From Flavobacterium oreochromis (GTDB lineage Bacteria; Bacteroidota; Bacteroidia; Flavobacteriales; Flavobacteriaceae): a DNA stretch of 64,000 nucleotides. The DNA is taken from positions 434,001 to 498,000 of the forward strand of contig NZ_CP067377.1 in the NCBI RefSeq assembly GCF_019565455.1, written 5' to 3'. A program made the translations under genes and the position numbers. The notes below the pieces were generated by a model. The model saw only the letters and a program-made list of their open reading frames with translations. It did no database searches and had not been told where the DNA came from. The stretch's first letter is position 1. Each line of letters begins with the position of its first letter. Below, in pieces: positions 47,247-63,812 of this stretch.

Positions 47247-47314
47247 AGCAATATTTAACAAACGAAGAGAGCCCTTCCTGAGAAGGGAATCGAAAGGAGT
47301 TTTTTAAAATTATT

Positions 47315-47350
47315 AAAGGAGTAGAGAATTAATTTTTCTACTCCTTTTTA
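47315..47350 (+). terminator. rho-independent terminator after the protease gene
   Basis: AAAGGAGTAGA at 47315-47325 pairs with TCTACTCCTTT at 47337-47347, followed by T-rich sequence. Confidence 0.75.
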
Positions 47351-48117
47351 TTTTTTCAATCCTATTCAAAATATAAATACCCATTTAAAAACAAAAAAAC
47401 AGTCTTTTTACAGCATATTTACAAAAACAACAATCTATGTATTTATATTTTTTTAGCATGACTATTAAGCCATTCTCTCATATTTCATCTTTTTTCAATA
47501 CAACATGTAAAAACAATTATTTACATAATCCTTCTACTATTTTAAAAATTAAAAACTACCCCTAAATTCATCCAGACTAATCAAACAAAATATTCATTCT
47601 TAGACGATACTACGCAAATAGATTAGAAGTCATTCAAAACAGCTTTAATCATTATTACATAATACGATGTCTATTCTTAGACATTATTATTTTTATGAAC
47701 AATCTAAAGCACACATAAAGAAAGACTATTCATAAATTATTACCAAGAATATTAAATAGAGTTTATTAAAACTAACTAGAAGACAAAAGGGGGACTATAT
47801 TTTACTCCAATTATCACTTTTAGTTCTTTACTGAAGGATTATAAGAATTTCCCATATCTTACTATAAAAAGAAGATTAAAACCACAAATAACACCCCATT
47901 TATATTATTAAACACAAGATTTTTAGAAGAAGAAAATATAAAAACCTTTCTTCCAATAATAAAATTCACCTTTCTAAGTCGTTGATTTTTATGTGAATTT
48001 AATTTTCCCAACAGACCTTAAAAAATACAAAAATAAATTTGTTAAAAAAAATACATATGAATAAAAAATAAACACATTAAGTTATAAATTAATAAAAATG
48101 CACATTTTTTTAATTTA
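47351..48117. other. long A/T-rich stretch without recognisable genes
   Basis: I read both strands and find no ORF with protein-like composition, no RNA gene and no repeat ends here. The sequence is very A/T-rich with many stops in all frames. Confidence 0.5.
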
Positions 48118-48151
48118 TTGTTTTATAAAACAAATTAATACCATATATTTG
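48118..48151 (+). promoter_or_regulatory. promoter for the isolated lipoprotein gene, with a ~200-base leader
   Basis: TTG at 48118-48120 and TATATTTG at 48144-48151 are 23 bases apart, at the long end of the accepted range. The leader to 48355 includes a palindrome TTCTGCAGAA near 48209 but no riboswitch that I can support. Confidence 0.5.
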
Positions 48152-48355
48152 TATCAGTTACAAGGAAGTTATTTAAAACTTAAACGGGTGCAACTAAGAG
48201 ATTCTGCAGAACCATGATAACCTCCAAAAACTATACCTTTTTTAGTTTTTATTAAAAAAATAAAGTAACAAGTTATTTCTTTTTTTCAAGAGACACCCCT
48301 CATAAGAAATGGCTTTCTTTAAAAACTAATTATTATTAATTTAAATTTAAAACAA

Positions 48356-48837
48356 ATGAAAAAAATTTTTTAAGCTTATTAGTAGCTTCTTCATTATTCT
48401 CATGTTCAAAAGATGAAGTAAACGAAACAAAATCAGTTGAATCAGTAAAAATAAATTCACAAAGAGTAAGTGAAGACGTATTTGGTAAGGTTTATTATAA
48501 TAAAGAAGGAAATCTAAAATTAAGAATAATGAACCGTTTTGGGGACACTTCAAAAATAAGCATAACATCTGCCGCTGATAGTAAAGAATATTTTCTTTTT
48601 GATGATGCAGAAGTAATGCATATTCCGGTTGGTGGAAAATCTGATGTCTATTTTTTATCTAAAGCTCGCAAATTCGTTTTTAGTAACCCTGAAGAAAATC
48701 AACTTTTAAACGAATTAAAAAAAATATTAATATTCGGAACTGGTAATCATGGTACATCTGTAAGATTAGACATAGCAAAAGATTTATCTTCTATTGTATT
48801 GAGTGCTGATACTTCAATAACATTCACAAAATTATAA
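48356..48837 (+). CDS. lipoprotein of unknown function, frame interrupted at the start
   Basis: Read with one added base in the A/T run at 48359-48371, the gene starts MKKNFLSLLVASSLFSCSKD, a lipoprotein signal with the cysteine in LFSC, and continues for about 160 residues to SIVLSADTSITFTKL. The mature part looks like a small beta-rich domain (VFGKVYYNKEGNLKLRIMNR). I do not recognise the family. It is isolated in about 2.4 kb of otherwise non-coding sequence with its own promoter and terminator. Confidence 0.65.
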
Positions 48838-48916
48838 TTAAATTATTTTCAATAATTAATATAGCTTATTTGATTTTAAGATAAAAGTAGAGAATAAGTT
48901 ATACCCAGTTTAGATA

Positions 48917-48965
48917 CCTCTAAGAAGTTTTTTTATAAAAAATAAAAGTTCTTAGAGGTTTTTTA
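48917..48965 (+). terminator. rho-independent terminator after the lipoprotein gene
   Basis: CCTCTAAGAA at 48917-48926 pairs with TTCTTAGAGG at 48949-48958, followed by TTTTTT. Confidence 0.75.
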
Positions 48966-49116
48966 TATATACTCCAGATTGCGAATTAAGTAAATATTAT
49001 ACTTTTCATTAACTTTATAAGCATGAACCTTTTATTAAATAGCTTATACGATATTGTTTCCTTACTTATAAAACAACTTATCCTATAGCACTTTTTATTT
49101 ACTTTAAACGCATAAA

Positions 49117-49272
49117 TTATCTCAAATGACGATCTACCAGATAATACTTTTCAATCATTGTAGTAGTTCTTCCATTTACCATAATTACTGATCTTTCATT
49201 TATAATAATCCAACTGTCTAATATGAATTCGTATCTTCCAATCAAAAAATCAACTTTTACAGCTAGCTCACT
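49117..49272 (-). pseudogene. possible remnant of an unknown gene (3' end)
   Basis: On the minus strand an open segment reads SELAVKVDFLIGRYEFILDS and continues WIIINERSVIMVNGRTTTMI then EKYYLVDRHLR before a stop at 49117. The composition is protein-like, but the frame closes upstream and no start is evident. The rest of 48966-49590 shows nothing further. Confidence 0.3.
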
Positions 49273-49591
49273 TTACCATCCGTATTCCATGATCTAATAA
49301 TTTGAGTCCATATAAGATTTTAGAGAATAGCATTAAATTGCAATAAAAAACAAATAGATTTTTACACATTTTGCTTTTTACGAAAGATTATATTCATTTT
49401 GTATTATTATCCCAAAACAACTATTTTAAATACTGTTTCAAATCTTTTAAATTATCATTTAGAAATAACTGTAGGAGTTTTTATAAAAAAAACACTGAAT
49501 ATTTGGCTTTAAAACAGAATCATTTATAGCCCATAAAAAAGGTGTTATAGCTATTATTCTTTTTAGAATCTTTCTCTTAATTTCAAAAAAT

Positions 49592-49651
49592 AAATATTAT
49601 ACAAAAGAGGCTGTTCTAAAAATTTAGAACAGCCTCTTTTGTATAATATTT
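49592..49651. repeat. 29-bp perfect inverted repeat made of two fused TIR ends
   Basis: A 29-base arm at 49592-49620 and its exact complement at 49623-49651 are separated by two bases. The core AGAGGCTGTTCTAAA is the end sequence of the TIR element family, but the internal part is missing. It lies 10 bases after the PpiD-type gene stop (minus strand) and can serve as a strong terminator in both directions. Confidence 0.75.
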
Positions 49652-49660
49652 TAGAGCTAA

Positions 49661-51751
49661 TTAATTAAACTGTGCTCTATTATCTTCAATTTTAGCATCA
49701 CGTTTTAATAAGAAAAGTAACCTAGCTGCTGAAGAACTTTTTGATTGTACTCCTAAACGTGCTATGATCTCTTTAAAATCTTTTGATGGAGCTGCTTTTT
49801 TAGAACCTATCACTTTTATTTTAAATACTCCAGAATTACCAGCAATTGTTGGCGACACTACTCCTTGCTTTAATGAAAAAGCTTCACCTACTACTTTTGG
49901 TTCTGGACCTATTGATTCAATGAAAGATCCTGCTGCAGATACATCTTTTGCTTCTTTAACTGGCGAACCTGTTGCTTTAGCCACAGCTTCTAAAGTAGCT
50001 CCTTTCATTTTGTCTTCAATCATTTTCACTTTTTTCTCGTTTCTTAATTTATATCCAAAAGCATTTTTAGCTTCTTCAATAGACATTAACCCTGAATCAT
50101 TGATAGATTTTAATTTCACGATAACATGAGCATTTGGAGTCTGAAAACGTTTAACATCATTTTTATCAGCTGAAAATGCCCAACGTACAATTTCTCTCTG
50201 TGCTCCTACACCAGGAATATTTTCATCTAAAGCAAACACTCTTGCTGCTGGAGCAACGGTTAATTTTTCTGCCTTTACTGCATTATCAAACCCTTTTTCA
50301 TTGGCTAAAATTTCAAATTTAGATGCCTTAGTAAACGCAGCATCGCTTGTAGCTTCTGAAGGAAGTATTTTTTGAGCAATAGTAGCCAAGCGTATTCCAT
50401 CTTGCTTATCTGTTACTTGAATTACATGGTAACCAAATTCCGTTTCAACTAAACCTATTTTTCCAACTGGATTTCCATACACAAAATTTTCGAAATTTTT
50501 AGTCATTTGTCCTTTTGAGAAATAACCTAAATCGCCCCCTTGTTGCTTAGAATTATCATCAGAATTAGTCATTGCTAACATAGCAAAAGAACTTGGATTT
50601 GCTTGTGCTTGTGCTAACAAAGCAGTTGCTTTTGCTTTTGCTTCTTCTTTAGTTCTATTAGCTTGTGGTCCTGCTGAACCTTTAAATGATAATAATATAT
50701 GGCTAGCTTTAGCATTAATTCCTGCTTTTTTTCCCATAGCTTTAGAAATACAATAGTACTGACCAAAAATATAAGGTCCATAAGTTGCACCAGGAGCTGT
50801 ATTAAATAAAGCTTCTGCATGATCTACTGGTAAATCTTTTTTAGCAATATAAGTAGAATCATATTTAATATCAGAATTAGTATTTACAAATTCAATCACA
50901 TTAGATGTATTACGGAATCCTGCTACAGTATCATTTTTACCTGTTTTCGCGTTATATACTACTGAAGCATTCATTAAAGCATTTACTTTGTCTTTAACAG
51001 CTTTTTCATCAGCAGCTGATGGCTTGTCTTCAATTACAACGTACTCTAACTCACGAGAAGGTTCTGCTTCGTACTTCTTCTCGTTTTTCTTCATATAAGA
51101 AATAATTTCGTCGTCCGTTAACTCAACTTTTTTATCTTCTACTGTTGAATAAGGAACTGAGACTAGGTTAAAAGTAACTTTATTATTTTCTAACTCATAA
51201 TTAAATTTACCTTCCGCTTGTGTAGTATAATAAGCCCCTTTAATCATCGAATTATACATTTGTTCTTTTGCAAATTGAGCTACTGATTTTTCATAATTCA
51301 ACCATTGGTTCCATGATTCAGGCTGTTTTTTCATAGAGTTTAAAAACTCATTGAATTTTGTTTTATCAAATTTACCAGCTGCATTTAAGAACTGAGGATT
51401 TTGTGAAAACTGTGGATCTTCTTTAATTACATTAATTAATTGATCATCTCCAATTCTTAATCCTGTTTTTTCAAATTGATCTTCTAATAAAACTCTTCTA
51501 ATTTCCTGTTCCCAAATACTATTACCTGCCTGTGTAAATGAAACTCCTTGCTGATTTTTTTGTAAAGCATCTACTTTATTTCTAAAATCCTCAAAAGTAA
51601 TATCTACACCGTTTATAGTACCTGCATTTCTTGAATTGAACATAGAAGATCCATTTTCAATTAGGGCACCTACTACGAATGCAAGTAATGACAAACCTAC
51701 AATACCGGCTACCAATAGAGAACGCTGTCTAATTTTTGATAAAACTGCCAT
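49661..51751 (-). CDS. PpiD/SurA-type peptidyl-prolyl isomerase
   Basis: This 696-residue periplasmic folding factor is anchored by one N-terminal helix (SLLVAGIVGLSLLAFVVGAL, about residues 11-30). A SurA-like chaperone domain covers about 40-220, and a parvulin-type rotamase domain lies in the middle (AKASHILLSFKGSAGPQANR through SDDNSKQQGGDLGYFSKGQM and FGYHVIQVTDKQDG). The layout is that of PpiD, the inner-membrane chaperone near the Sec translocon that helps outer-membrane proteins fold. It is the last gene of a minus-strand run that includes lptC and an outer-membrane protein. Confidence 0.9.
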   Translation of the reverse strand: MAVLSKIRQRSLLVAGIVGLSLLAFVVGALIENGSSMFNSRNAGTINGVDITFEDFRNKVDALQKNQQGVSFTQAGNSIWEQEIRRVLLEDQFEKTGLRIGDDQLINVIKEDPQFSQNPQFLNAAGKFDKTKFNEFLNSMKKQPESWNQWLNYEKSVAQFAKEQMYNSMIKGAYYTTQAEGKFNYELENNKVTFNLVSVPYSTVEDKKVELTDDEIISYMKKNEKKYEAEPSRELEYVVIEDKPSAADEKAVKDKVNALMNASVVYNAKTGKNDTVAGFRNTSNVIEFVNTNSDIKYDSTYIAKKDLPVDHAEALFNTAPGATYGPYIFGQYYCISKAMGKKAGINAKASHILLSFKGSAGPQANRTKEEAKAKATALLAQAQANPSSFAMLAMTNSDDNSKQQGGDLGYFSKGQMTKNFENFVYGNPVGKIGLVETEFGYHVIQVTDKQDGIRLATIAQKILPSEATSDAAFTKASKFEILANEKGFDNAVKAEKLTVAPAARVFALDENIPGVGAQREIVRWAFSADKNDVKRFQTPNAHVIVKLKSINDSGLMSIEEAKNAFGYKLRNEKKVKMIEDKMKGATLEAVAKATGSPVKEAKDVSAAGSFIESIGPEPKVVGEAFSLKQGVVSPTIAGNSGVFKIKVIGSKKAAPSKDFKEIIARLGVQSKSSSAARLLFLLKRDAKIEDNRAQFN

Positions 51752-51850
51752 TTTACATCTTAATTTTTTAATTCAGTTGGCGAAAATACAACTATCTATG
51801 AAATAATAAAATAAGTTCGCTTTTATTTTGGTTCAAACTTTGTTTTTTTT

Positions 51851-52042
51851 CTAATTATTATCTTTCTCTTCAAATTTCTTAGCGAAATTTCTTCTAAAGA
51901 AAAACATACCAATAGCTCCTAATCCTAAAAACAGGCTTAAATAGGGCATATCATTTCCTAAATTTATTTTTGTAAATGCGTCATAAAATAAGAAAGCAGC
52001 AGCTATCAAATAAGCATATTGAGTGTATTTCATGTATTTCAT
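51851..52042 (-). CDS. small membrane protein of unknown function
   Basis: A 63-residue protein with two hydrophobic helices (AYLIAAAFLFYDAF and LSLFLGLGAIGMFFF) and a charged C-terminal tail (RRNFAKKFEEKDNN). It lies between lptC and the PpiD-type gene on the same strand. No function can be inferred. Confidence 0.6.
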   Translation of the reverse strand: MKYMKYTQYAYLIAAAFLFYDAFTKINLGNDMPYLSLFLGLGAIGMFFFRRNFAKKFEEKDNN

Positions 52043-52138
52043 AAGTTCAGTATTTATTTTATAATTTTTAAAATCATAGTTTTAGATCAGCATTATCAAA
52101 CAAAATATGTTTAAATCTGATCTTGATTATTTTTTTTA

Positions 52139-52693
52139 TTATAAGTTATAGGTTCCTTGTATATTCTGGGTATCTAGAAAACTAAAATCTTTACTAAAAT
52201 CAATTCCTACGCCACTAATAACACTTCCATTATTAGTAAATCTAAATGGCTTTTGTGTAAAAAACCATTCCTTTTTTTGATCATAATACAACTGTTCTGT
52301 TTCTAAACGTTTCCCATCATGGGTTGTTATAACTACATTTTGATCCAGTTCTATTAAATTGGTTTTACTATAGATTATTGCATATTTAGATGTCACTAAG
52401 CTCTTGTTTCCCTTTTCATCATAAACAGCTAAATTTAATCCATCAGGAAACTCATTAAACGGAAACTCTGCTGTCGTATAATCTAGCATTTTGGGTGAAA
52501 TTAAAACAGCTTTTATCTTACCAGAATCTGTATATTTTAGATTAAAATTTTCAATTTCTCCTACAGGATTAATTGATGTAATATTAATTTTACGAACTTC
52601 ATTTATACTATTCTCACAAGCCACAAAAAAAAGTGAAGCTATTAAAAACAGCAACACTTTAAAGATATTTTTTTTTTGAATAAGACTAATCAT
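52139..52693 (-). CDS. lptC: LPS export periplasmic protein LptC
   Basis: LptC receives lipopolysaccharide from LptB2FG and passes it to LptA across the periplasm. This 184-residue protein has an N-terminal signal with a lipobox-like cysteine (LLFLIASLFFVACENS), unlike the membrane-anchored E. coli form, then a beta-jellyroll pattern (SGKIKAVLISPKMLDYTTAE; VVITTHDGKRLETEQLYYDQ). It overlaps the outer-membrane protein gene by eight bases, so the two are translationally coupled. Confidence 0.85.
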   Translation of the reverse strand: MISLIQKKNIFKVLLFLIASLFFVACENSINEVRKINITSINPVGEIENFNLKYTDSGKIKAVLISPKMLDYTTAEFPFNEFPDGLNLAVYDEKGNKSLVTSKYAIIYSKTNLIELDQNVVITTHDGKRLETEQLYYDQKKEWFFTQKPFRFTNNGSVISGVGIDFSKDFSFLDTQNIQGTYNL

Positions 52694-53911
52694 ATCTACG
52701 TTTTACAAACCATCTATCATTAAACGATAATCCTATAGAAAAATTCATATAATTTTCTTTAACTAAATCAGATGCAGTAGTTCCTTTTTGTCCATATTCG
52801 AACCCAATATTAACATTCGAAAAAGTACCTCCTAATGGCAAACCTACTCCTAGAGTTATTGCTTTATCTTTTATAGATTCTCCTTTAGCAACAATACCTA
52901 CGTTTTCATAACGAAGACCACCGCGGTATACCACTCGGTTTAAATAACCTGAAAAAGCATTGTATTTAGGAATATAATATCCTCCTATAGCAATCTTTGC
53001 TTTTTCTTCTCCTACTAAAGACTTATTATCATCTAACTCTATATCGCCTTTTGTTGCAAATGAAGACTCAAAAGCAATAGTCCATTTTTTATCTATCCCG
53101 AAAGTAGACCCAAATGTAAATTGGTGTCTATTATTTCGAAACGAATTTTTTTGATCAACTCCAAAACTAATTTCAGATGCAGTAACAGTAGAAATTAATC
53201 CTTTCGTTTTTAACTCTTCAACTCGTAAGCCTAATGGCAAATCAACTGTTCCAGATGTAACGAAATCATATTGAGAAATTTTTGTTTTATAAAAACCTCC
53301 TAATTTTATATTCCCTCCTCTTACTTCATATTTTGAGCGTTCAAATGTTGCATTAACATCTGTATCATAAGCATAAATTATATTTTTCTGAATAATCCCA
53401 AAATCATAATCAAACTCTGCTCCTAGGCTAAATTTAGGTGTAATTTTATACCCTAATGCCACATAAGCCCTATTCATACCTCCAAACCCTTCTAGATTAC
53501 GAGTATTTAAATCTACTTTAGAATTAATTTTATAACCAACATAAGAGTTGGCATACAATCCTACTCCTACCCCTAACTTATTAGTTAAAGGAAAGGCGGC
53601 TGTAAGATAATCAAAAGTAACACGTTGTGCTTTTTCTTCTACAGAAGTATTTCTAAATGTTACTTTAGAAAAAGCGCCTCCCATAGCTAACGAAGTCAAC
53701 TTCATAACGGATAAACCTGCTGGGTTTTGAAAATTAATATGAATACTATCCATAACTACCCCCATTCCTGCCATTGAGCGATTTTCAACCGAATTAGCAA
53801 ACTTAGTCTCACCAAGACCATAAGATGAATAAAATGAGGCCGAACCTGTTTGAGCAGCATTCTGTAAAGTAAAAAGGAAGAAAAAGCTCCTAAAATTATT
53901 TTTCTATACAT
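52686..53911 (-). CDS. outer-membrane beta-barrel protein (FadL/PorV-like pattern), frame interrupted near the start
   Basis: Corrected for one missing T near 53871-53885, the protein starts MYRKIILGAFFFLFTLQNAA, a signal peptide, and continues ASFYSSYGLGETKFANSVEN before SMAGMGVVMDSIHINFQNPA. The NPAGLS motif followed by alternating barrel strands resembles FadL/PorV-like outer-membrane proteins of the Bacteroidota. The length is about 408 residues. It overlaps the 3' end of coaX and precedes lptC, an order seen in flavobacterial envelope clusters. The transported substrate is unknown. Confidence 0.75.
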
Positions 53912-54634
53912 TGTATTTGGTATTGGTATATACGATTCAAACTTTCTAATAAAAAATTTGCATTGGCAAATATGGTATTTTTTAATCGTTTAGCCAAAAA
54001 ATTAGCATCTCCTCCCGTTAAAATTATGATAATTTTTTCTTTCTCTTTTATTAATTCATTTATATACCCATCAATTTCAAAGCTCAAACCATTAACAACA
54101 CCTGAGTGCATTGAGGCAATTGTTGAATTACCTATTAGGTTTTCTGGGTCTGTTAGTTCTAACAAAGGCAACTTAGCGGTATAATTGTGCATAGAGGCAT
54201 AACGAAGTCTAAACCCTGGAGAAATAGCTCCTCCATAATAAACATTTTGTGCATCTACAAAATCGTATGTAATACAAGTTCCTACATCAATAATTAATCT
54301 ATTTTGAGATGGGAATTGCAAAACAGCACCTGCGGCTAAAACCATACGATCAACCCCTAATGTATTAGGTGTTGCATATTCATTAATGAAAGGAAAATTA
54401 CTTTTTTGAGAAATCTGAACCACTTTAAAGCGTTTTTGAAGCCATTCAATTTCTTTTTTTCTAATTTCCCAACTGAAGAAAGGACCAAATCCTTGCATAA
54501 GGGGTATTTTTGAAAATTTTTTCGATTTCAAATAAAATTTTTTCAAGTGAAAATGAAAAAAGATCTAAAAGTGTATCCTTCTCAAAAACAGCCACTTTAA
54601 CTCTTGTATTTCCTATATCTACTGCTAAAATCAT
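53896..54634 (-). CDS. coaX: type III pantothenate kinase, frame interrupted twice
   Basis: CoaX phosphorylates pantothenate, the first step of coenzyme A synthesis. Read across two frame breaks (T runs at 54507-54511 and 54454-54460), the protein has about 245 residues: MILAVDIGNTRVKVAVFEKD, then YPLCKDLVLSSVGKLEKKEI, NTLGVDRMVLAAGAV and IDVGTCITYDFVDAQ, which hold the ASKHA nucleotide and substrate sites. No other pantothenate kinase is visible in the window, and the enzyme is normally essential, so errors are more likely than decay. Confidence 0.88.
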
Positions 54635-54688
54635 GACTTTTTTAAATTATGGACAAAGATATAAATAGATTTTTTTCAAAAAAATGTT

Positions 54689-54718
54689 TTGCACAAATGA
54701 AAAAAGCTCTTATATTTG
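54689..54718 (+). promoter_or_regulatory. promoter for the tRNA-Phe pair
   Basis: TTG at 54689-54691 and TATATTTG at 54711-54718 are separated by 19 bases, with the first tRNA starting 36 bases after the -7 element. Confidence 0.7.
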
Positions 54719-54754
54719 CATCCGCATTCGATAAGCAACAACGCTTTAAGAAAT

Positions 54755-54827
<73 letters not shown>

Positions 54828-54863
54828 CAAATCAGAAGATGATTAACGTTCAAAAAAATTACT

Positions 54864-54936
<73 letters not shown>

Positions 54937-54940
54937 CATT

Positions 54941-54970
54941 AAAACCACTATTTCATAGTGGTTTTTTTAT
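54941..54970 (+). terminator. rho-independent terminator after the tRNA pair
   Basis: AAAACCACTAT at 54941-54951 pairs with ATAGTGGTTTT around a three-base loop, followed by a T tract. Confidence 0.85.
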
Positions 54971-55014
54971 TTTAAAAAAATCACACATTCCCTACTCTTC
55001 CTGTTTACTTTCTA

Positions 55015-55112
55015 GGATCAAGTCATATTTCTGTGGATTAGTTAAAATTACGCATATAAATTTGGGATCAAGTCATATTTCTGTGGATTAGTTAAAATTA
55101 CGCATATAAATT
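55015..55112. repeat. tandem direct repeat, two 50-bp units from an IS end
   Basis: GGATCAAGTCATATTTCTGT starts at 55015 and again at 55065, and the units are identical for about 48 bases. The unit contains the last codons of an ISAon1-type transposase gene (minus strand) plus the presumed terminal sequence of that IS, so one IS end has been duplicated. Confidence 0.8.
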
Positions 55113-55250
55113 AGTTAGTCTAAAAAGGAAGAATTCTATACTTCTCACTCCTCTAAATTTACTTCTAAAAGCTTTTATTTTTGCATTGAAAGATTCTGCT
55201 GAAGCGTTAGTACTTCTAAAACTAATTTTAAAAGTAACATTTATTTTAAC
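55065..55250 (-). mobile_element. ISAon1-family insertion sequence, 3' remnant
   Basis: Minus-strand translation of 55098-55220 gives NASAESFNAKIKAFRSKFRG then VRSIEFFLFRLTNLYA and a stop, the recognisable C-terminus of flavobacterial ISAon1-type transposases (IS4-like DDE). Everything N-terminal is lost or unrecognisable. The fragment begins about 130 bases after the tRNA-Phe pair, a common spot for insertions. Confidence 0.75.
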
Positions 55251-55710
55251 AAACATTTTTTAACGTTTAATCGCTTATTTATTACCATACCTACAGCTTA
55301 TTTCAGTCACTAATTTTAGTTGTTTTTAGAAAGACTCTATTAATAATTCCAGTACAACTTCTACTTTTATTGTTCCTAGCACTATCACATTGCTAGCTTT
55401 AGCTATTTATTTTAACTCAGTAGCCCTCCTTTAAACAAAGAAAATAATTCGCGCAACAACAAAGACTTATCTATATTTTCAAAAAGAGGAATCATCCTTT
55501 CTATATTTTAACTAACTCCTTTTTATAATTTTACTTAAAAGAATCCTCATATTGACATTTTAAATTTCTAATATTTATATCACAAAATACAGCAATAGCA
55601 TTATAGTCATTAAATTCAGAGCCTGTCTATTGATTTTTTTAAAAGCCTCAAACGCCTAAATCACCCATGCCTTTCCACAAAGAAAGCCTAATTACTAAAA
55701 ACCTCTTATT
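55251..55710. other. non-coding stretch, probably degenerate mobile-element sequence
   Basis: No ORF, RNA or repeat boundary that I can support. The position between an IS tail and the start of the 2.1-kb duplication suggests decayed IS sequence, but no motif proves it. Confidence 0.35.
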
Positions 55711-55952
55711 GAATATCATCAGACTTAAAAAACTACTTCTGAATTTAATTTATGATTACGATATTTTTTATGATTAGAATGAATATAAATCTCTTTAAAT
55801 CAAAAAAATCCTTCATCCTTAAGTTTAAAAAACAAAAAACAACTTAAAAAGACAAACAAAAGAACCTCCTATTTAAGTTAATTTTAGAAAACAAAAATAG
55901 TTTTTTTGTTTTCTTTAACTTTTTCAACCCAAACTTAGACTAATATTTCCCT

Positions 55953-55960
55953 TACATTTG
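55953..55960 (+). promoter_or_regulatory. promoter -7 element for propeller lipoprotein gene 1
   Basis: TACATTTG fits TAnnTTTG. It is only 10 bases before the first ATG and 28 before the ATG of MKKLIYL, so either the mRNA is nearly leaderless or the later ATG is used. It is conserved exactly in the second unit. Confidence 0.5.
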
Positions 55961-55970
55961 AATAATAATA

Positions 55971-57011
55971 ATGAATACGAATATGAATATGAAAAAACTT
56001 ATTTATTTATCAGCTTTGTCAATCCTTTTTTCTTGTAATAAAGAAGAAGTAGTAGTTAACACTCCCCAACAGCCAGAATCCCCTAAAAATATATTTGCAG
56101 TAGGCGAGGAACTTAACGGACAAATAAGTGTTGCTAAATTATGGAAAAATGGCGTACCCACTTCATTAACCGATGGAACTAAAAAAGCCGATGCTACCTC
56201 AATATATGTAGCTGGTTCAGATGTATATGTAGCCGGGAATGAATCGAACGGAAATGTATATATTCCTAAAGTTTGGAAAAATGGCAAATCTACTTCTTTA
56301 ACAGATGGAACTAAACCTGCCTATGCTTCTTCAATATATGTAGCTGGTTCAAATGTATATGTAGCTGGATATGAATTTAATGATAACGATATTAGAGTTG
56401 CTAAAATTTGGAAAAATGGCGTACCTACTTCTTTAACCGATGGAACTGAAAATTCATCAGCAAGCTCAGTATGCGTAGTCCAATCAAACGTTTATGTTGC
56501 TGGTTATGAGCGTAACGATAAAAATATGGGAATTGCTAAAATTTGGAAAAACGGTATAGCTACTTCTTTGACTGACGGAACTAAAGACGCGTATGCTAAC
56601 TCAGTATATGTAGTCGGTTCAGATGTATACGTAGCTGGAATAGAGTCTAACGTTGCTAAAATTTGGAAAAACGGCATAGCTACTTCTTTAACTGGCGAAA
56701 CTAAAAACACGTATATTAAATCAATATATGTAGCCGGCTCAGATGTATATGCGTCTGGATATGAACGCGTTAATGGATTAGCAACTATTGCTAAAGTTTG
56801 GAAAAATGGCATACCTACTTCTTTGACTGACGGAACTAAAGAAGTATATACCAACTCAATATACGTAGTTGGTTCAGATGTATATGTAGCTGGAGAGGAA
56901 ATTAACGATGCTCGTGTAAGAATTCCTAAAATCTGGAAAAATGGCGTACCTACTTCTTTAACTGATGGAACTAAAAACGCTACGATTATGTCCATTTTTG
57001 TAGGTAATTAA
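55971..57011 (+). CDS. lipoprotein with seven near-identical repeats, putative beta-propeller (copy 1)
   Basis: This 346-residue protein has a lipoprotein signal: MNTNMNMKKLIYLSALSILF followed by SCNKEE, with the lipidated cysteine at about residue 22. From about residue 40 it consists of repeats of roughly 43-46 residues with core WKNGVPTSLTDGTK, then SIYVAGSDVYVAG and a variable acidic loop ending AKI. There are seven WKNG units; the first blade's missing strands appear to be completed by the last (SIFVGN), a velcro-like closure typical of seven-bladed beta-propellers. The fourth repeat is about six residues shorter. No T9SS C-terminal domain is seen. The start may instead be the ATG at 55989. 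The ligand is unknown. Confidence 0.8.
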   Translation: MNTNMNMKKLIYLSALSILFSCNKEEVVVNTPQQPESPKNIFAVGEELNGQISVAKLWKNGVPTSLTDGTKKADATSIYVAGSDVYVAGNESNGNVYIPKVWKNGKSTSLTDGTKPAYASSIYVAGSNVYVAGYEFNDNDIRVAKIWKNGVPTSLTDGTENSSASSVCVVQSNVYVAGYERNDKNMGIAKIWKNGIATSLTDGTKDAYANSVYVVGSDVYVAGIESNVAKIWKNGIATSLTGETKNTYIKSIYVAGSDVYASGYERVNGLATIAKVWKNGIPTSLTDGTKEVYTNSIYVVGSDVYVAGEEINDARVRIPKIWKNGVPTSLTDGTKNATIMSIFVGN

Positions 57012-57100
57012 CATTTATTAACCATCTGAGAAAATATCAAAAAGAAAGGAATTAGATTTCCGAAAATTTTAGACAATTTTAAATTTTATTTTAACATAAC

Positions 57101-57138
57101 AACGAGTTAGATACAGCTATATCTAACTCGTTTTTTTA
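57101..57138 (+). terminator. rho-independent terminator after propeller gene 1
   Basis: AACGAGTTAGATA at 57101-57113 pairs with TATCTAACTCGTT at 57120-57132, followed by T residues. Confidence 0.85.
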
Positions 57139-58099
57139 TTAAAATTATTCTAGGTTGGAATAGCAATTCAACATGAATTTAAAATAAAATTGCTCCAAAA
57201 TACAAGATAAATTTCGTTAGAAAAAAGTGATTGAAAAAATTTCAAACTAACAATCCTTTATTTCCAAACAATACCTCATAAAGTTCATTAATAAAACCTA
57301 ACATTTTCAATAGCTTTACTAAAAAGTATTCCACCAGCATAATTATTAATTACAACATGAAGCTTGGAACCTAAGAATTAACCAAGAGGTTTTCAACTCT
57401 TGGTAGTATTTAAATATTTTTATGCTATTCAATTCTTCTTTTACCAGATATTCTAAATGGAGAGCAGAATCATAAAATAAAGATCAGCACAACCCACTAA
57501 ACCTTTCTTTTACAAGTCATCAAATTTAAAAACTCTTTTATCAAAAATTTACTTACGCATTCAAAATAAAATGTTTTAAAATTTCTATATCCAGAAATAT
57601 AAAAAAGAGCTTGATTTGCAATTATTTCTGAAAGAGATAAACTCGATTTTCTAATGTTTTTTTCCATTAGAAATCATTTGATTTTCTCAGTTAGGAACAA
57701 AATCTTTACAAAATCATCAATAGAATAAAAAATAGTTGTAATTTTAGTTAGCGAAAGCAAAAGCGCTCTATTCATTTAACAATCAACCATTTAAATATAC
57801 TCCTTTTGCTTTTTTATACAACTATTTTATCATATTTATATAGAACTCACGTTATTAAACATCATCAGACTTAAAAAACTACTTCTGAGTTTAATTTATG
57901 ATTACGATATTTTTTATGATTAGAATGAATATAAATCTCTTTAAATCAAAAAAATCCTTCATCCTTAAGTTTAAAAAATAGAAAACAACTTAAAAAGACA
58001 AACAAAAGAACCTCCTATTTAAGTTAATTTTAGAAAACAAAAATAGTTTTTTTTGTTTTCTTTAACTTTTTCAACCCAAACTTAGACTAATATTTCCCT

Positions 58100-58107
58100 T
58101 ACATTTG
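58100..58107 (+). promoter_or_regulatory. promoter -7 element for propeller lipoprotein gene 2
   Basis: TACATTTG, identical in sequence and in distance to the gene as in unit 1. Confidence 0.5.
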
Positions 58108-58117
58108 AATAATAATA

Positions 58118-59170
58118 ATGAATACGAATATGAATATGAAAAAACTTATTTATTTATCAGCTTTGTCAATCCTTTTTTCTTGTAATAAAGAAGAAGTAGT
58201 TAACACCCCTCAACAGCCAGAATCTCCTAAAAATGTATTTGTAGTAGGTACTGAACTTAGCGGACAAATAAGTGTTGCTAAATTATGGAAAAATGGTGTA
58301 CCCACTTCGTTAACTGATGGAACTAAAGACGGATTTGCTAGTTCAATATATGTAGCTGGTTCAGATGTTTATGTAGCTGGCATGGAATTTAATGATAATG
58401 GCATACCAGTTGCTAAAATTTGGAAAAATGGCAAACCTACTTCTTTAACTAGCGGAACTAAACATGCCTATGCTACCTCAATATATGTAGCTGGTTCAGA
58501 CGTATACGCTGCTGGTGCGGAATCTAATGATAATGGTATACCAGTTGCTAAAATTTGGAAAAATGGTGTACCTACTTCTTTAACCGATGGAACTAAACAA
58601 GCCTATGCTACCTCAATATATGTAGCTGGTTCAGATGTATATGTAGCTGGGAATGAATCTAACGGACAAATAAGTGTTGCTAAAATTTGGAAAAATGGCA
58701 TAGCTACTTCTTTGACTGACGGAACTAAAGATGCGCATGCTAACTCAATATGTGTAACCGGTTCAGACGTATATGTTGTTGGTGAGGAATCTAATGATAA
58801 TAATACGACAATTGCTAAAATTTGGAAAAACAACAAACCTACTTCTTTGACTGATGGAACTAAAAGAAGCTATACCAAATCTATATACATAGCTGGTTCA
58901 GATATATATGTTACTGGCTATGAACATAATGACAAAAATATAGCAATTGCTAAAATTTGGAAAAATGGAACAGCTACCTCTTTGAGCAATGAAACTAAAA
59001 ACAGCAATGCTGAATCAATATATGTAGCTGGTTCAGATATATACGTTGCTGGAAATGAATCATCTGATAACGGGATTTCGACTCCTAAAATCTGGAAAAA
59101 TGGCGTGCCTACTTCTTTAACTGATGGAACTAAAAACACTACGATTACGTCCATTTTTGTAGGTAATTAA
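58118..59170 (+). CDS. lipoprotein with seven near-identical repeats, putative beta-propeller (copy 2)
   Basis: This 350-residue paralogue of the upstream protein has the same signal peptide and lipobox, and again seven WKN-containing repeats (WKNGVPTSLTDGTK; one unit has WKNNKPTSLTDGTK). All repeats here are near full length, unlike the shortened fourth repeat of copy 1. Differences from copy 1 concentrate in the short loops after VAG (for example MEFNDNGIPV, NESNGQISV, EHNDKNIAI), the positions expected to be surface-exposed on a propeller face. The putative role is binding of an extracellular ligand or partner; no enzymatic motif is present. MKKLIYL at 58136 is the alternative start. Confidence 0.8.
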   Translation: MNTNMNMKKLIYLSALSILFSCNKEEVVNTPQQPESPKNVFVVGTELSGQISVAKLWKNGVPTSLTDGTKDGFASSIYVAGSDVYVAGMEFNDNGIPVAKIWKNGKPTSLTSGTKHAYATSIYVAGSDVYAAGAESNDNGIPVAKIWKNGVPTSLTDGTKQAYATSIYVAGSDVYVAGNESNGQISVAKIWKNGIATSLTDGTKDAHANSICVTGSDVYVVGEESNDNNTTIAKIWKNNKPTSLTDGTKRSYTKSIYIAGSDIYVTGYEHNDKNIAIAKIWKNGTATSLSNETKNSNAESIYVAGSDIYVAGNESSDNGISTPKIWKNGVPTSLTDGTKNTTITSIFVGN

Positions 59171-59259
59171 CATTTATTAACCATCTAAGAAAATATCAAA
59201 AAGAAAGGAATTAGATTTCCGAAAATTTTAGACAATTTTAAATTTTATTTTAACATAAC

Positions 59260-59297
59260 AACGAGTTAGATACAGCTATATCTAACTCGTTTTTTTA
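59260..59297 (+). terminator. rho-independent terminator after propeller gene 2
   Basis: Same hairpin as in unit 1: arms at 59260-59272 and 59279-59291, followed by a T tract. Confidence 0.85.
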
Positions 59298-60004
59298 TTA
59301 AAATCATTCTAGGTTGGTATAGCAATTCAACATGAATTTAAAATAAAATTGCCCCAAAATACAAGATAAATTTCGTTAGAAAAAAGTGATTGAAAAAATT
59401 TCAAACTAACATCCCTTTATTTCCAAACAATACCTCATAAAGTTCATTAATAAAACCTAACATTTTCAATAGCTTTACTAAAAAGTATTCCACCAGCATA
59501 ATTATTAATTACAACATGAAGCTTGGAACCTAAGAATTAACCAAGAGGTTTTCAGCTCTTGGTAGTATTTAAATATTTTTATGCTATTCAATTCTTCTTC
59601 TTTACCAGATATTCTAAGTGGAGAGCAGAATCATAAAATAAAGATCAGCACAACCCACTAAACCTTTCTTTTACAAGTCATCAAATTTAAAAACTCTTTT
59701 ATCAAAAATTTACTTACGCATTCAAAATAAAATGTTTTAAAATTTCTATATCCAGAAATATAAAAAAGAGCTTGATTTGTAATTATTTATCAAAGGATAA
59801 AATTTGATTTTCTAATATGCTTTTCCTTTATTAAAATTATTTAATTTCTCCGTTAGAAATAAAAAGTAATTCTAATTCTTTAGTGAAAGTAAAAGTTTGG
59901 TATTTGTTTTAAAAATCAACTATTTATATACTGTTTTTATTATTTTATAAAACTTCCGTCAATAATGAGATAGAGTTTATCTTATTCTTTATATAAAAAG
60001 GGGA

Positions 60005-62717
60005 TTAATCCCCTTGTTCCTTGTATTGTTCGCTTTCTAATTCATTTACTTTTGACCCTAACCGTACTTTTGGTTTATCTTTTGTTCCTTCTATTTTTAG
60101 AGGAATTCCAATTATTCCCATTGGAGGTAATCCAAGACGCATTTTTAAAGCAAGTTTACCATCTAAACTAGTAGTTCCTTCTATACGCGGGCGGAAACCT
60201 GCTATTTTAAATTTAAAACGATCAATTTCCATTAAATTATTCTGAATACATGTTTTTATTTCAAAATCATTTACTTCTCCTGAATCAATACCACTATGTC
60301 CTGTTGAATTACTGACTGCTTTAAGCAATTTAAACCCATTTAATTTAACTTTTTTTACCCCTACGACACCTCCTCCTTGTAGAGAAGGAAAGACAGGAAA
60401 CATATCATCATTTAAAAATCCTTTCAACTGATATTGCAACGAAATAATCCCTTCTGCATTAGCAGCAGCACTTGCCATTTCCCTAAACAACTTAACTTCC
60501 TTATACGCTTTTTTACATCAAACTCTTCTACTGACAAATCCATTCCAAATTGAGCTCTTTTAGCATTCTTTGCTTTATAATTACCTGCAAATGACACAGG
60601 ACTATCAATCACTAAACAAGATCCATTTGCTATTGTGATTTCACCATTTTTCAACTTGGTTTTTCCTTGCAAACATTTAATATTTAAATCATCAAATAAA
60701 ATTCTATCTACTGCTGCTTGAAAATCTAAATCTAAATTTTTAGGAAGCATAACAACCCCTTTTACCTCTTTATTTGAAGACGTATTATTAGAATTATTAG
60801 CTATAGGCATCATCCATTCATTAACATTTAAATAAGGAGTTTGTAATTGAAACTGTCCTTTCAAGATTCCTTTATCATGTGTTAAAAAGTTTACAACATT
60901 TTGCACATATCCATTAAATTTAAGAATACTATGACCGTATTTAGCATTAAAATTTTTAAATTGTAATTGATCATTATTAAAAGCAAAAACTCCTTTGACA
61001 ATATAAAATGGCAATGGTAAATATTCAGAAGTAGTTCGAACGTTTCTTAAATAAAACTGCCCTTTATTAATTAATTTATTATAACGTCCTGCTTGAGCAT
61101 CACTCTGTTTCCCTTTTAGATAAATAGCCCCTTGAGCAAACCCTTCTAGGGTGTATCCTTTCACACCAAATACTTTATAAATTTTTCCAAAGTCTATTCC
61201 ACCATTAGCACTAACTTGATAGTTTGCATTAGTCATATCACTAATATTGGCTTTAACAGTTAAAGGTTGGCCTTCAAAAAAGAACCGTAGAGGCTTTAGA
61301 ATAACTTGTGTTGTTTGTAAGTTATTTTTAACATTTAGATCTACTACGGCATTTATTTTTTGAATAGGATTAGGATAAAACGGTGTTTTTAAATAGCCAT
61401 CTTTTAATTTACAAAAAGCTTTTGTTAAAGGCAATTTATTCTGTTTAGCATCTAACATACCTTTTACATCTAAGCGTGTTTTAAGATCTCCTTTTAATTC
61501 ATAACCAGGAAGAAAACCAACCGCTTGGTTTAAATAATTTAAGTCTAAATCAGTATCTAAATTAGCATTTATGATAGGCTTAGAAAGCCCTACTGTTTCA
61601 AGTTTTCCTTTCAAATATCCCTTTCCTATTCCAAAACGGATAACTGGAATTTTTACTGATAATAGTTCCGGATTTAATTGAGGTAATTCAACATGTAAAT
61701 CTGTATTAAATTTCTCCAAAGGGAAAGGTGCTCCATCGTATTGAATGAATCCATCTTTAAGATTCAAATCAAGCTTCATATTAGGCTTTTTATTTTCATC
61801 CGTAATAAAATCTCCTTTTAAAGAAAGAACCGCATCTGTAGTCCCTTTCAGGGTTGTTTTTTCCATCCAAGTGATTAACTTTGGAGGTAAAGCTGTAAAA
61901 ATATCTTCTAAATTACTATTTTGGGTTTTAACCAAAAAATTCATTCTATAACCATTAGGTAAGAAATCAAAATTCCCTGTAAAATCTACAGGTAATTTAT
62001 TAATCATTAAATTATCTTGTTGAAAAACAAATGCTAAAGACTGGGTATTAACTTGTGTAATTAAATCTGCATTTACTTTTTTATTTTTAAGGTATTGTTC
62101 TCCTTTAAATTCAAAATCAAATGCTTCAATACTTGCTTTGGTTTTAATTTCAAAAATTTGATTTTTCAAACTTCCATTTCCAAAATAATCAAAACCTAAC
62201 GCATCAACAGCTACTTGTGCAGAGGCATCATGATATTTTATATGAGCGTTTTTAATAGCTATTAATTTTAGCTCTATAGAGGTATCTTCTTTTTATTTGT
62301 CTGATCATCTGTTTTACTTTCGTAAACATTATAATTAGCATGCCCTTGTTTATCAACTAAAACATTGATTTCTGCATTATCTAAAAATAATTTATTGATG
62401 TGTATTTTCCCTTTTATAAGTTCCTGAACATCAATACCAAATGCGATTTCATCTGATTTTATCAGATTAATTTGTTCAAATGGAGCAGCTCCTGTTAATT
62501 GAAAATCATTAAAGGACAGTGTTAACGCGGGAAAATGCTCAATAATGGAAAGATTAGCATCCGAAAAATTAATATTTCCTTTTATGTGTTCATTAGCATA
62601 CTCTTTTACTTTTTGAGTAATAAAATTGGGGAATAAGAATGGCAAACTAATTATTACTAAAACAATAAATAATAGTCCTCCAAGCAACCATTTAAACTTT
62701 TTAATATACTGTAGCAT
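60005..62717 (-). CDS. AsmA-family envelope protein, frame interrupted twice
   Basis: AsmA-like proteins are large periplasmic beta-taco proteins anchored in the inner membrane and implicated in phospholipid transport and outer-membrane integrity. Joined across breaks at 62290-62294 and 60509-60514, the product is about 904 residues. The membrane helix is at the N-terminus (WLLGGLLFIVLVIISLPFLF); the rest is repetitive beta structure with typical segments such as SDANLSIIEHFPALTLSFND and the C-terminal LKMRLGLPPMGIIGIPLKIE. I use the ATG at 62717, because a longer start would lie inside the upstream TIR element. Confidence 0.82.
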
Positions 62718-62729
62718 ACATTTATTCAA

Positions 62730-62917
62730 GAGGCTGTCCAAAAAGTCCGTAATCTTGTCATTTGACTTCGTCCAGTCGCTTTGCTCTAGTCAACCAAAGG
62801 GGGACCCGAGAACTCCGATCGAACAGGCGAAACAAATCGCATAGTACTGATTATGAAACTCCTCCTTGCGTAGGAGTAACAAACTATGTGTTGATTTTTT
62901 ACTTTTAGGACAGCCTC
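62730..62917 (+). repeat. TIR repeat element, copy 4 (MITE-like, 188 bp)
   Basis: It begins GAGGCTGTCCAAAAAGTCCG and ends ACTTTTAGGACAGCCTC, highly similar to the copy at 8382-8565. It exactly fills the space between the AsmA-type gene start (12 bases away) and the end of the pseudouridine synthase gene (3 bases away), so it may change transcription between them. Confidence 0.85.
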
Positions 62918-62920
62918 AAC

Positions 62921-63786
62921 CTATATATTCTTTAAATTAATTATTTCTTGATTTGTCAAAAATCTCCAGTTTCCACGTGGTAAGTTCTTTTTTGTTAATC
63001 CGGCAAACGCAACACGATCTACTTTTAAAACATTATATTCTAATGATTCGAATATTGAACGAACTATTTTTACGTTAGCTGTTTTTATTTGTAATCCTAT
63101 TTCTGATTTAGGTGCGTTTTCTATATAAGATACATCGTCTACTATTATTTTATAGTCATTAACATATAATCCTTTTTGTACCTTTTCTAAATCTTCGTAT
63201 TTTAAATTGCGATCTAAAGTAATTTGATAAATTTTAGGAGAGCGCTGATTAGGCAGTGTAAACTTACGAACCATATCAGTATCGTTAGTAAACAATAACA
63301 AACCTGTAGTAGTTTTATCCATACGTCCAACAGGTTCTAATTTAGCTTTAGTAATACCACGCACTAAATCAAGAACATTGTTTGCATTTAGATCTTCTTC
63401 TTTTGATGTAGTAAATCCTTTAGGTTTATTTAATAAGATATATTCTTTTTTTCAGGAGATATAACACTTCCATCAAAGTTTACAACATCGCCTGCTTTTA
63501 CCTTATATCCCATTTCGGTAACTACTTCGCCATTAACTTTTACATTTCCAGACTGGATATAAATATCTGCATCGCGTCTTGAGCAAACTCCAGAATTAGA
63601 AATATACTTATTTAAGCGGATCTCTTCCTCCTCTAGCGAGGTTACTTTTTTGGGTTTTCTTTCAAATTTAGGTTTGCCTTTTGTAAAATTTGATTTTTTA
63701 AAATTTGGTTTAGCATCCCCTCCTTCTCGTTTACCAAAAGTAGGTTTAGTGTTTGATCTCTTATTATTTCCTCTTCCTTTTATCAT
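62921..63786 (-). CDS. 23S rRNA pseudouridine synthase, RluB type, frame interrupted once
   Basis: This enzyme isomerises a specific uridine in 23S rRNA. It starts with a basic, low-complexity tail (MIKGRGNNKRSNTKPTFGKR), then an S4 RNA-binding domain (IRLNKYISNSGVCSRRDADI) and the RluB/RsuA catalytic domain with the active-site aspartate in VGRMDKTTTGLLLFTND. One missing base in the T run at 63446-63452 breaks the frame; correction gives about 288 residues. The ATG at 63786 is used because the promoter -7 element lies just upstream and would exclude the earlier ATG at 63807. Confidence 0.88.
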
Positions 63787-63804
63787 CGCGACTATATTTT
63801 TTGG

Positions 63805-63812
63805 CAAAGATA
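63805..63812 (-). promoter_or_regulatory. promoter -7 element for the pseudouridine synthase gene
   Basis: TATCTTTG on the minus strand fits TAnnTTTG, about 19 bases before the ATG at 63786. Confidence 0.55.

Follow-up and report, generated by a model that had tools for sequence, protein, structure and literature searches.

The window analysed here is a stretch of 64,000 nucleotides from Flavobacterium oreochromis (contig NZ_CP067377.1, positions 434,001 to 498,000 of the forward strand). It contains two adjacent lipoprotein genes, here called A and B, which lie in the two units of a tandem duplication, as had been proposed in a preliminary description of this DNA. The unit copies are spaced 2146-2161 bp apart, both reading frames are unbroken, and the two proteins are 73% identical. 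The features of the pair, in window coordinates, are as follows:

55712-57857, strand +: unit 1 of the tandem duplication (repeat comparison)
55953-55960, strand +: TACATTTG, element resembling the flavobacterial -7 promoter box, ahead of gene A (read by eye)
55971-57011, strand +: gene A, lipoprotein of 346 aa with signal sequence, lipobox Cys22 followed by N-K-E-E, and seven blades (open reading frame, blade profile)
56091-57008, strand +: blade array of A, with blades 1-7 at 56091-56990 and the closing strand SIFVGN at 56991-57008
57101-57132, strand +: terminator hairpin of gene A
57858 to about 59990, strand +: unit 2 of the tandem duplication, with a diffuse right end (repeat comparison)
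58100-58107, strand +: TACATTTG ahead of gene B (read by eye)
58118-59170, strand +: gene B, lipoprotein of 350 aa with signal sequence and Cys22-N-K-E-E, modelled as a seven-bladed propeller (open reading frame, blade profile, AlphaFold)
58235-59167, strand +: blade array of B, with blades 1-7 at 58235-59149 and the closing strand at 59150-59167
59260-59291, strand +: terminator hairpin of gene B, identical to that of gene A

Promoters and terminators were duplicated along with the genes, in agreement with the preliminary description. The two hairpins are exact copies, and the putative promoter element TACATTTG, present in both 5′ flanks, fits the flavobacterial -7 box consensus, given as TAnnTTTG (PMC9723704). 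With both strands considered, 6 terminator-like sites were found versus 1.3 expected. The assignment of A and B as lipoproteins was likewise borne out: in both, the signal sequence ends in LFSC, and Cys22 is followed by N-K-E-E, giving a surface-export-like N-terminus.

Each array consists of seven repeats of 40-45 residues, apart from the first, which has 36 residues and three strands; the 43-46 residues estimated at the outset were not reproduced. The repeat pattern in both proteins is SIYVAGSDVYVAGxExN...AKIWKNGxxTSLTDGTK. The missing first strand of blade 1 is supplied in both by the C-terminal SIFVGN, which completes the three-strand first blade and substantiates the velcro-like split blade that had been suggested. 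The AlphaFold model of B (mean predicted local distance difference test score 93.1, predicted template modelling score 0.86) closes 28 strands into a seven-bladed ring, the predicted first and last strands sharing one blade, so that the suspected closed propeller was recovered for B. The blades are less alike than the near-identical copies first described, with a median identity within the protein of 65% in A and 68% in B (blades 2-7) and an average likeness of 72.5% at the DNA level, and very recent amplification was therefore an overstatement.

The blade arrays have a history separate from that of their flanks. A and B differ at 4 of 257 positions in the 5′ flank and at 8 of 607 in the 3′ flank (1.3-1.6% for the non-coding flanks), at none of the first 74 coding nucleotides, and at 195 of 897 (21.7%) in the array; the last 21 coding nucleotides are again identical, and divergence begins inside the gene. 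The long duplicated flanks of the preliminary description hold up to position 57618, to which they are near-identical, but in the rightmost 240 bp the two units diverge by 28.8% (59 of 205 in the distal relic, with 54 gap columns), so the near-identical flank ends there. For equivalent blades of A and B, the nonsynonymous and synonymous divergences (dN and dS) are 0.21 and 0.46. Since selection on the amino acids alone would leave dS unraised, the value of 0.46 points to a separate history of the arrays.

The replacements between A and B are also unevenly placed on the ring. Of 92 in total, 63 fall on the side that carries the B-C and D-A connections (63 of 125 codons, versus 29 of 174 elsewhere); when only loops assigned by DSSP are counted, the figures are 28 of 77 versus 2 of 26. 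The dN/dS ratio (omega) is 0.68 on the variable side (bootstrap interval 0.44-1.02) and 0.23 elsewhere. In the structural model, this one-sided distribution fits a binding role: the B-C and D-A side may be a diversified, probably ligand- or partner-binding face, with the A-B and C-D hairpins and the strand cores kept.

The propeller family to which A and B belong is large, has no name and is found mostly in Bacteroidota; its blade number is nearly fixed at seven. At least 5096 proteins matched B at E ≤ 1e-3 among 8000 scored candidates; the homolog statistics given here use the 120 listed best matches to B of these 5096, so that ranks are biased. An iterated blade profile found seven blades in 110 of the 120, six in 6 and eight in 4, and seven in 64 of 71 open reading frames with at least three blades from the fetched genome loci of relatives (designated L below). 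This profile superseded a cruder regular-expression count, which gave seven blades in 85 of 120 with one pattern and 46 of 120 with another. Variation of copy number between genomes, which had been raised as something to look for, is not supported by these counts. Seven blades were aligned in 171 proteins; their within-protein blade identity has a median of 0.50 and reaches 0.60 in 22 of them, with A (0.65) in 10th place and B (0.68) in 5th. Some genes are present twice in these counts and identities (L022/L111, L037/L116, L040/L115 and L046/L110).

The gene is patchily distributed, being present in 16 of 150 genomes of the genus and in 34 of 397 drawn from the family Flavobacteriaceae, with the window's genome in both sets. 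The closest homologs are at most 56% identical to B (among the 120 listed of 5096) and at most 57% identical to A (among 111 listed), and no second strain is among them. That A and B belong to no named family was upheld, as Pfam and NCBIfam models gave nothing above cut-off for either; no Pfam model matched more than 4 of 38 family members, and most of the 120 listed members are unnamed or annotated 'hypothetical protein'. No literature on the family, or on its link to the CHAT/sigma cassette described below, was found in open-licence PMC papers. A phage origin was rejected, as no relative is encoded at any of the 14 sites in viral contigs that matched the pattern (one single-protein scan, sensitive to close relatives only), and so was membership in a defence system, PADLOC giving no match for A or B.

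Other members also occur side by side: three adjacent copies are present in each of L008 and L010, two in L107, and two about 2 kb apart in L002. The propeller of Aureibaculum flavum (L011, 7980-8972) consists of two open reading frames of 136 and 138 aa with three blades each, and is a broken or mis-sequenced copy. Small secreted or membrane proteins recur as neighbours of the propellers in L107, L108, L111, L112 and L116; these are DUF4412- or OmpA-like, DUF4870-like (114 aa, below cut-off), or lipoproteins of about 200 aa that form a paralogous family.

Decayed mobile elements mark the edges of the duplication:

55082-55217 and 55251-55720, strand -: relic of a decayed ISL3-type insertion sequence, ahead of unit 1 (alignment; the relative L074 encodes PF01610, DDE_Tnp_ISL3)
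57200-57857, strand -: decayed DDE transposon relic behind A, a chimera (alignment to unit 2 and to copy L071)
59361-59952, strand -: second transposon relic, behind B, an old copy (distal part 69% identical to L071)

The DDE relics behind A and B are presumably IS982-like. The open reading frame of L071, a genomic copy of the element, matches PF13612; of the relatives elsewhere in the genome, two copies share 94% identity and a third stands at about 80%. The relic behind A switches identity at about 57619. Its old part (57200-57618) is 99.0% identical to unit 2 (415 of 419) and 69% to L071, while its younger part (57619-57857) is 86% identical to L071 and 71% to unit 2, and the end of the unit 2 relic is 69% identical to L071; when copy L072 is used, the last two values become 81% and 71%. 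The alignments thus place the junction between a younger element copy and the old relic at about 57619, and the left edge of unit 2 is the terminus of this younger copy. Recombination between such element copies probably made the duplication: the relic behind the gene would have recombined with a younger element copy of the same kind ahead of it.

Plain exchange between sister chromosomes should leave an element copy in front of A. No copy of the DDE element was seen in front of unit 1, which weighs against this route and points to an event between two distinct chromosomes, or to later loss of the copy. One form of the former is possible, though we lean against it: DNA of a second strain, with the element ahead of its propeller gene, would have entered by recombination in the relic that follows the resident gene, and A and B would be alleles of a locus with a strain-variable array and flanks about 1.5% different. 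This single event would account for the chimeric relic, the absent front element and the differing arrays, and it agrees with unit 2 starting at the element terminus while the ISL3-type relic reaches the border of unit 1. However, the ISL3-type alignment (55251-55720) crosses that border by just 8 bases, so that an 'empty site' is weakly shown and the front copy may have been lost later; a further colinear block of this relic lies at 55835-55923. The database matches listed include no second strain, and the orthologs in other species are not hypervariable.

Alternatively, the duplication may be old, the genes having long diverged while gene conversion recently homogenised the flanks and spared the arrays; we regard this as a tentative candidate. 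The dS of 0.46 in the arrays beside 1.3-1.6% in the non-coding flanks argues for it, as does a weak positional correspondence of blades 2-7, in which equivalent blades are 77.3% alike versus 74.7% for other pairings (13 of 720 permutations as good, p = 0.018, all sites). This correspondence is weaker, and not significant, at third positions (p = 0.12) and for blades 2-6 (p = 0.11), and conversion would be required on both sides of a spared array. It is rather unlikely that a recent duplication was followed by replacement of a whole array, recombination in the conserved ends of the gene bringing in that of a divergent homolog. The identical first 74 and last 21 coding nucleotides, with divergence starting inside the gene, are what such a swap would leave, but the genome itself holds no donor array (its two matches are A and B) and the listed homologs are at most 57% identical.

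The explanation that we favour, with modest confidence, builds on the computed gene structure, lipoprotein signals, predicted fold of B, chimeric relic and array-versus-flank divergence. A and B would be paralogous surface lipoproteins, each a closed seven-bladed ring with a diversified binding face; the pair would stem from recombination at the transposon relic, and the arrays would owe their separate history to the joining of two divergent alleles, to replacement of one array, or to homogenisation of the flanks by gene conversion. As exported lipoproteins, A and B would show the variable face outward and bind a ligand or partner, which may be a host, a glycan, a phage or another protein, and the second gene would free one copy to diverge. 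They are likely exported to the outer face of the outer membrane, as their C-N-K-E-E-V agrees with C-X-K-(D/E)2-X, described as the optimal surface-export signal in Capnocytophaga (PMC5080379). The same source gives the own export motif of F. johnsoniae as SDDFE. A lipobox-like site is present in 92 of the 120 homologs listed, and 37 of these 92 have at least two acidic residues at +2 to +6.

Besides the missing front element, several points weigh against this explanation. C-x-K-(D/E)-(D/E) occurs in only 9 of the 92 lipobox homologs and is no family hallmark; this rarity and the differing F. johnsoniae motif keep surface export at likely. The fold model is of B only, and that of A follows by homology at 73% identity. 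The columns of the variable side (14-23 and 37-45) were picked after column variability had been viewed, and the omega there (bootstrap interval 0.44-1.02) does not demonstrate positive selection. Recombination between blades was not supported by the pairwise homoplasy index, which gave p = 0.11-0.35 for 12 or 14 blades and 0.12-0.65 at silent sites; in a run test over 66 pairs the lowest p, 0.007, was lost after correction, and with these two tests apparent mosaics such as blade B4 are not claimed as recombinants.

Hypervariability of the array as a family rule, a further point of this kind, was rejected using six locus pairs in other species. Ortholog pairs are under purifying selection (omega 0.18-0.36), and in L018/L032, L026/L052 and L038/L039 the neighbours used for comparison have a higher dS than the propeller. 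In L008/L010, two propeller genes have dS of 0.48 and 0.51, above neighbours at 0.12-0.39 (one short neighbour reaches 1.28; two rows pairing paralogs were dropped), and the L025/L027 propeller is near saturation (dS 2.26, 48% identity; neighbours 75-97%). For L041/L043 the propeller alone was compared. The propellers of Maribacter (L018, 7998-9041) and Saonia flava (L032, 7989-9032) are 91% identical with dS 0.15, next to flanking genes at 0.6-1.35, a likeness that may reflect recent exchange between genera.

A and B resemble the highly repetitive beta-propellers (Pereira and Lupas 2022, PMC9218822) in that both exceed the 60% median identity between blades by which that group is defined. In the same work, blades that are more alike within a protein than between homologs are read as independent amplification. 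The family follows this pattern in that within-protein identity exceeds positional identity in 92% of 3000 random family pairs; positional (0.446) and non-positional (0.445) identities are about equal there, and both are below the within-protein value (0.497). It differs in its nearly fixed blade number. Close orthologs, in contrast, correspond blade position by position, and for A and B the positional identity of 0.71 is slightly above the within-protein values (0.65 and 0.68), with blades 72.5% alike in DNA.

The seven-bladed surface lipoprotein BtuG of Bacteroides, encoded beside btuB, is described as a high-affinity receptor (PMC6143338). By analogy, a seven-bladed surface lipoprotein such as A or B could be a receptor; membership in the BtuG family is not supported, no sequence match to it was found in the PDB, and nothing observed points to corrinoid binding. 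No TonB-receptor domain was detected in the ten neighbouring open reading frames (45439-63807), three of which lack a Pfam match and some of which belong to genes in pieces.

An enzymatic role of the CylK or lactonase kind was considered, and is very improbable. Catalytic propellers account for several of the best structural matches listed, but their identity is 16% or less, and the best PDB match of the family profile is a designed propeller (E 0.015), followed by Kelch-like protein 22 (E 0.06). CylK, at 16% identity, is described as a two-domain enzyme with its active site at the interface with the second domain (PMC8916777), a domain that A and B lack. No PDB sequence relative of B was found at E ≤ 1. 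Among the matches listed, the best Foldseek E-values against the B model came from Kelch propellers (KEAP1, KLHL) and designed SAKe proteins, with TM-scores of only 0.44-0.49 by query length. Many of the Kelch targets are six-bladed. Kelch_6 matched 2 of 38 family members at E ≤ 0.001, and Pfam Kelch models stay below cut-off in A and B. No WD40 model was among the Pfam matches of the 38 members, though WD40 rings do occur among the structural matches listed.

The pair lies among housekeeping-like genes (SurA-like, LptC, pantothenate kinase, AsmA and pseudouridine synthase), in a region whose left border is marked by a tRNA pair:

54755-54828 and 54864-54937, strand +: two identical tRNA-Phe genes, left border of a probably inserted region (tRNA scan, 76-nt perfect repeat)

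The tRNA-Phe genes are 109 bp apart from start to start, and a perfect 48-bp direct repeat (55015, 55065) lies just 3′ of them. From tRNA-Phe to the AsmA-like gene the distance is 66 bp in the relative G009 (L121) versus 5067 bp here, so the intervening region was probably inserted; the other nine loci scanned had no tRNA in their short flanks. A search for RNA elements in the flanks returned, besides the tRNAs, only matches that fall short of the gathering score. Neighbouring genes are split across frames at 60005-62741, 62921-63807, 45077-47154 and 40907-42705; they encode AsmA, a pseudouridine synthase and a tail-specific protease (by Pfam) and a ComEC-like protein (by eye). The AsmA piece has strong matches in 11 relatives, where the frame is open over 907-965 aa in 10 cases and over 760 aa in the remaining one, which lies at a contig end. 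The split neighbours reflect assembly indels or pseudogenes, next to propeller genes that are unbroken.

In relatives, some propeller genes adjoin a candidate signalling cassette. Of 34 loci fetched, L034 was left out, and clustering of the remaining 33 found a sigma factor, a one-helix TPR protein and a TPR-CHAT protein in five (L008, L010, L011, L014 and L022), with CHAT confirmed by Pfam for L008, L014 and L022. Merging the genus and family sets gave 56 propeller loci, including that of the window's genome; the sets overlap with the loci above, as genome G447 holds the same sequence as L022 (100%). The 47 propeller-bearing genomes yielded 50 CHAT matches in 27 genomes, and 32 of the 56 loci lie in genomes with a CHAT gene. 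Ten of the 56 are within 10 kb of a TPR-CHAT gene versus 0.32 expected (Poisson 2e-12, a test that treats related genomes as independent), and by BLAST to reference proteins all 10 have sigma, anti-sigma-like and CHAT genes. The catalytic His (HFATH) and Cys (LSACQTG) are kept in 14 of 14 CHAT proteins of relatives; from hydropathy only, a C-terminal helix is predicted in 13 of 14, and one helix in 14 of 14 TPR proteins. From gene order and topology, the TPR protein may be an anti-sigma factor. Near other propeller loci, two-component or AraC-type regulators were found (AraC-type by eye except in L006).

A sigma/anti-sigma/CHAT circuit might have the family as its surface sensor or principal output, with A and B as leftovers of such a circuit; to our reading this is somewhat unlikely. 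The proximity of the 10 loci to CHAT genes and the presence of sigma and anti-sigma-like genes at all of them favour this proposal, but the cassette is absent at 46 of 56 loci, and 40 of the 50 CHAT genes lie away from any propeller. The window's genome (completeness 95.67) has no CHAT match at E ≤ 0.001 and only weak matches to an anti-sigma profile (best E 2.2e-4). The cassette recalls the type III-E CRISPR CASP circuit of Csx29, Csx30 and CASP-sigma, in which the TPR-CHAT protein Csx29, RNA-activated in the CRISPR complex, is described as relieving sigma inhibition (PMC10028731). The likeness is that genes for a sigma factor, a protein resembling an inhibitor and a TPR-CHAT protein adjoin the propellers of relatives. 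Unlike in CASP, the CHAT proteins of relatives begin with a signal-like segment and mostly end in a membrane helix, and CHAT is missing from the window's genome.

The pair presents a sharp contrast, with arrays at a dS of 0.46 between flanks differing by about 1.5% and a recombination switch still readable in a dead transposon, in a family of at least 5096 proteins without a Pfam or NCBIfam model that recognises A or B above cut-off. A speculative proposal, which we consider distinctly unlikely, is that the family marks an envelope signalling module of Flavobacteriaceae, in which seven-bladed surface propellers with one variable face would work with an exported TPR-CHAT protease that cleaves the one-pass TPR anti-sigma protein and frees the sigma factor; the window would then represent an orphan branch, where the propeller was multiplied and diversified and the array, flanked by conserved sequence, exchanged as a cassette. 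If true, this module would be a previously undescribed envelope counterpart of the CRISPR CASP circuit. The CHAT/anti-sigma-like/sigma neighbourhood offers a testable entry to the function of the propellers, and is the part most worth following.

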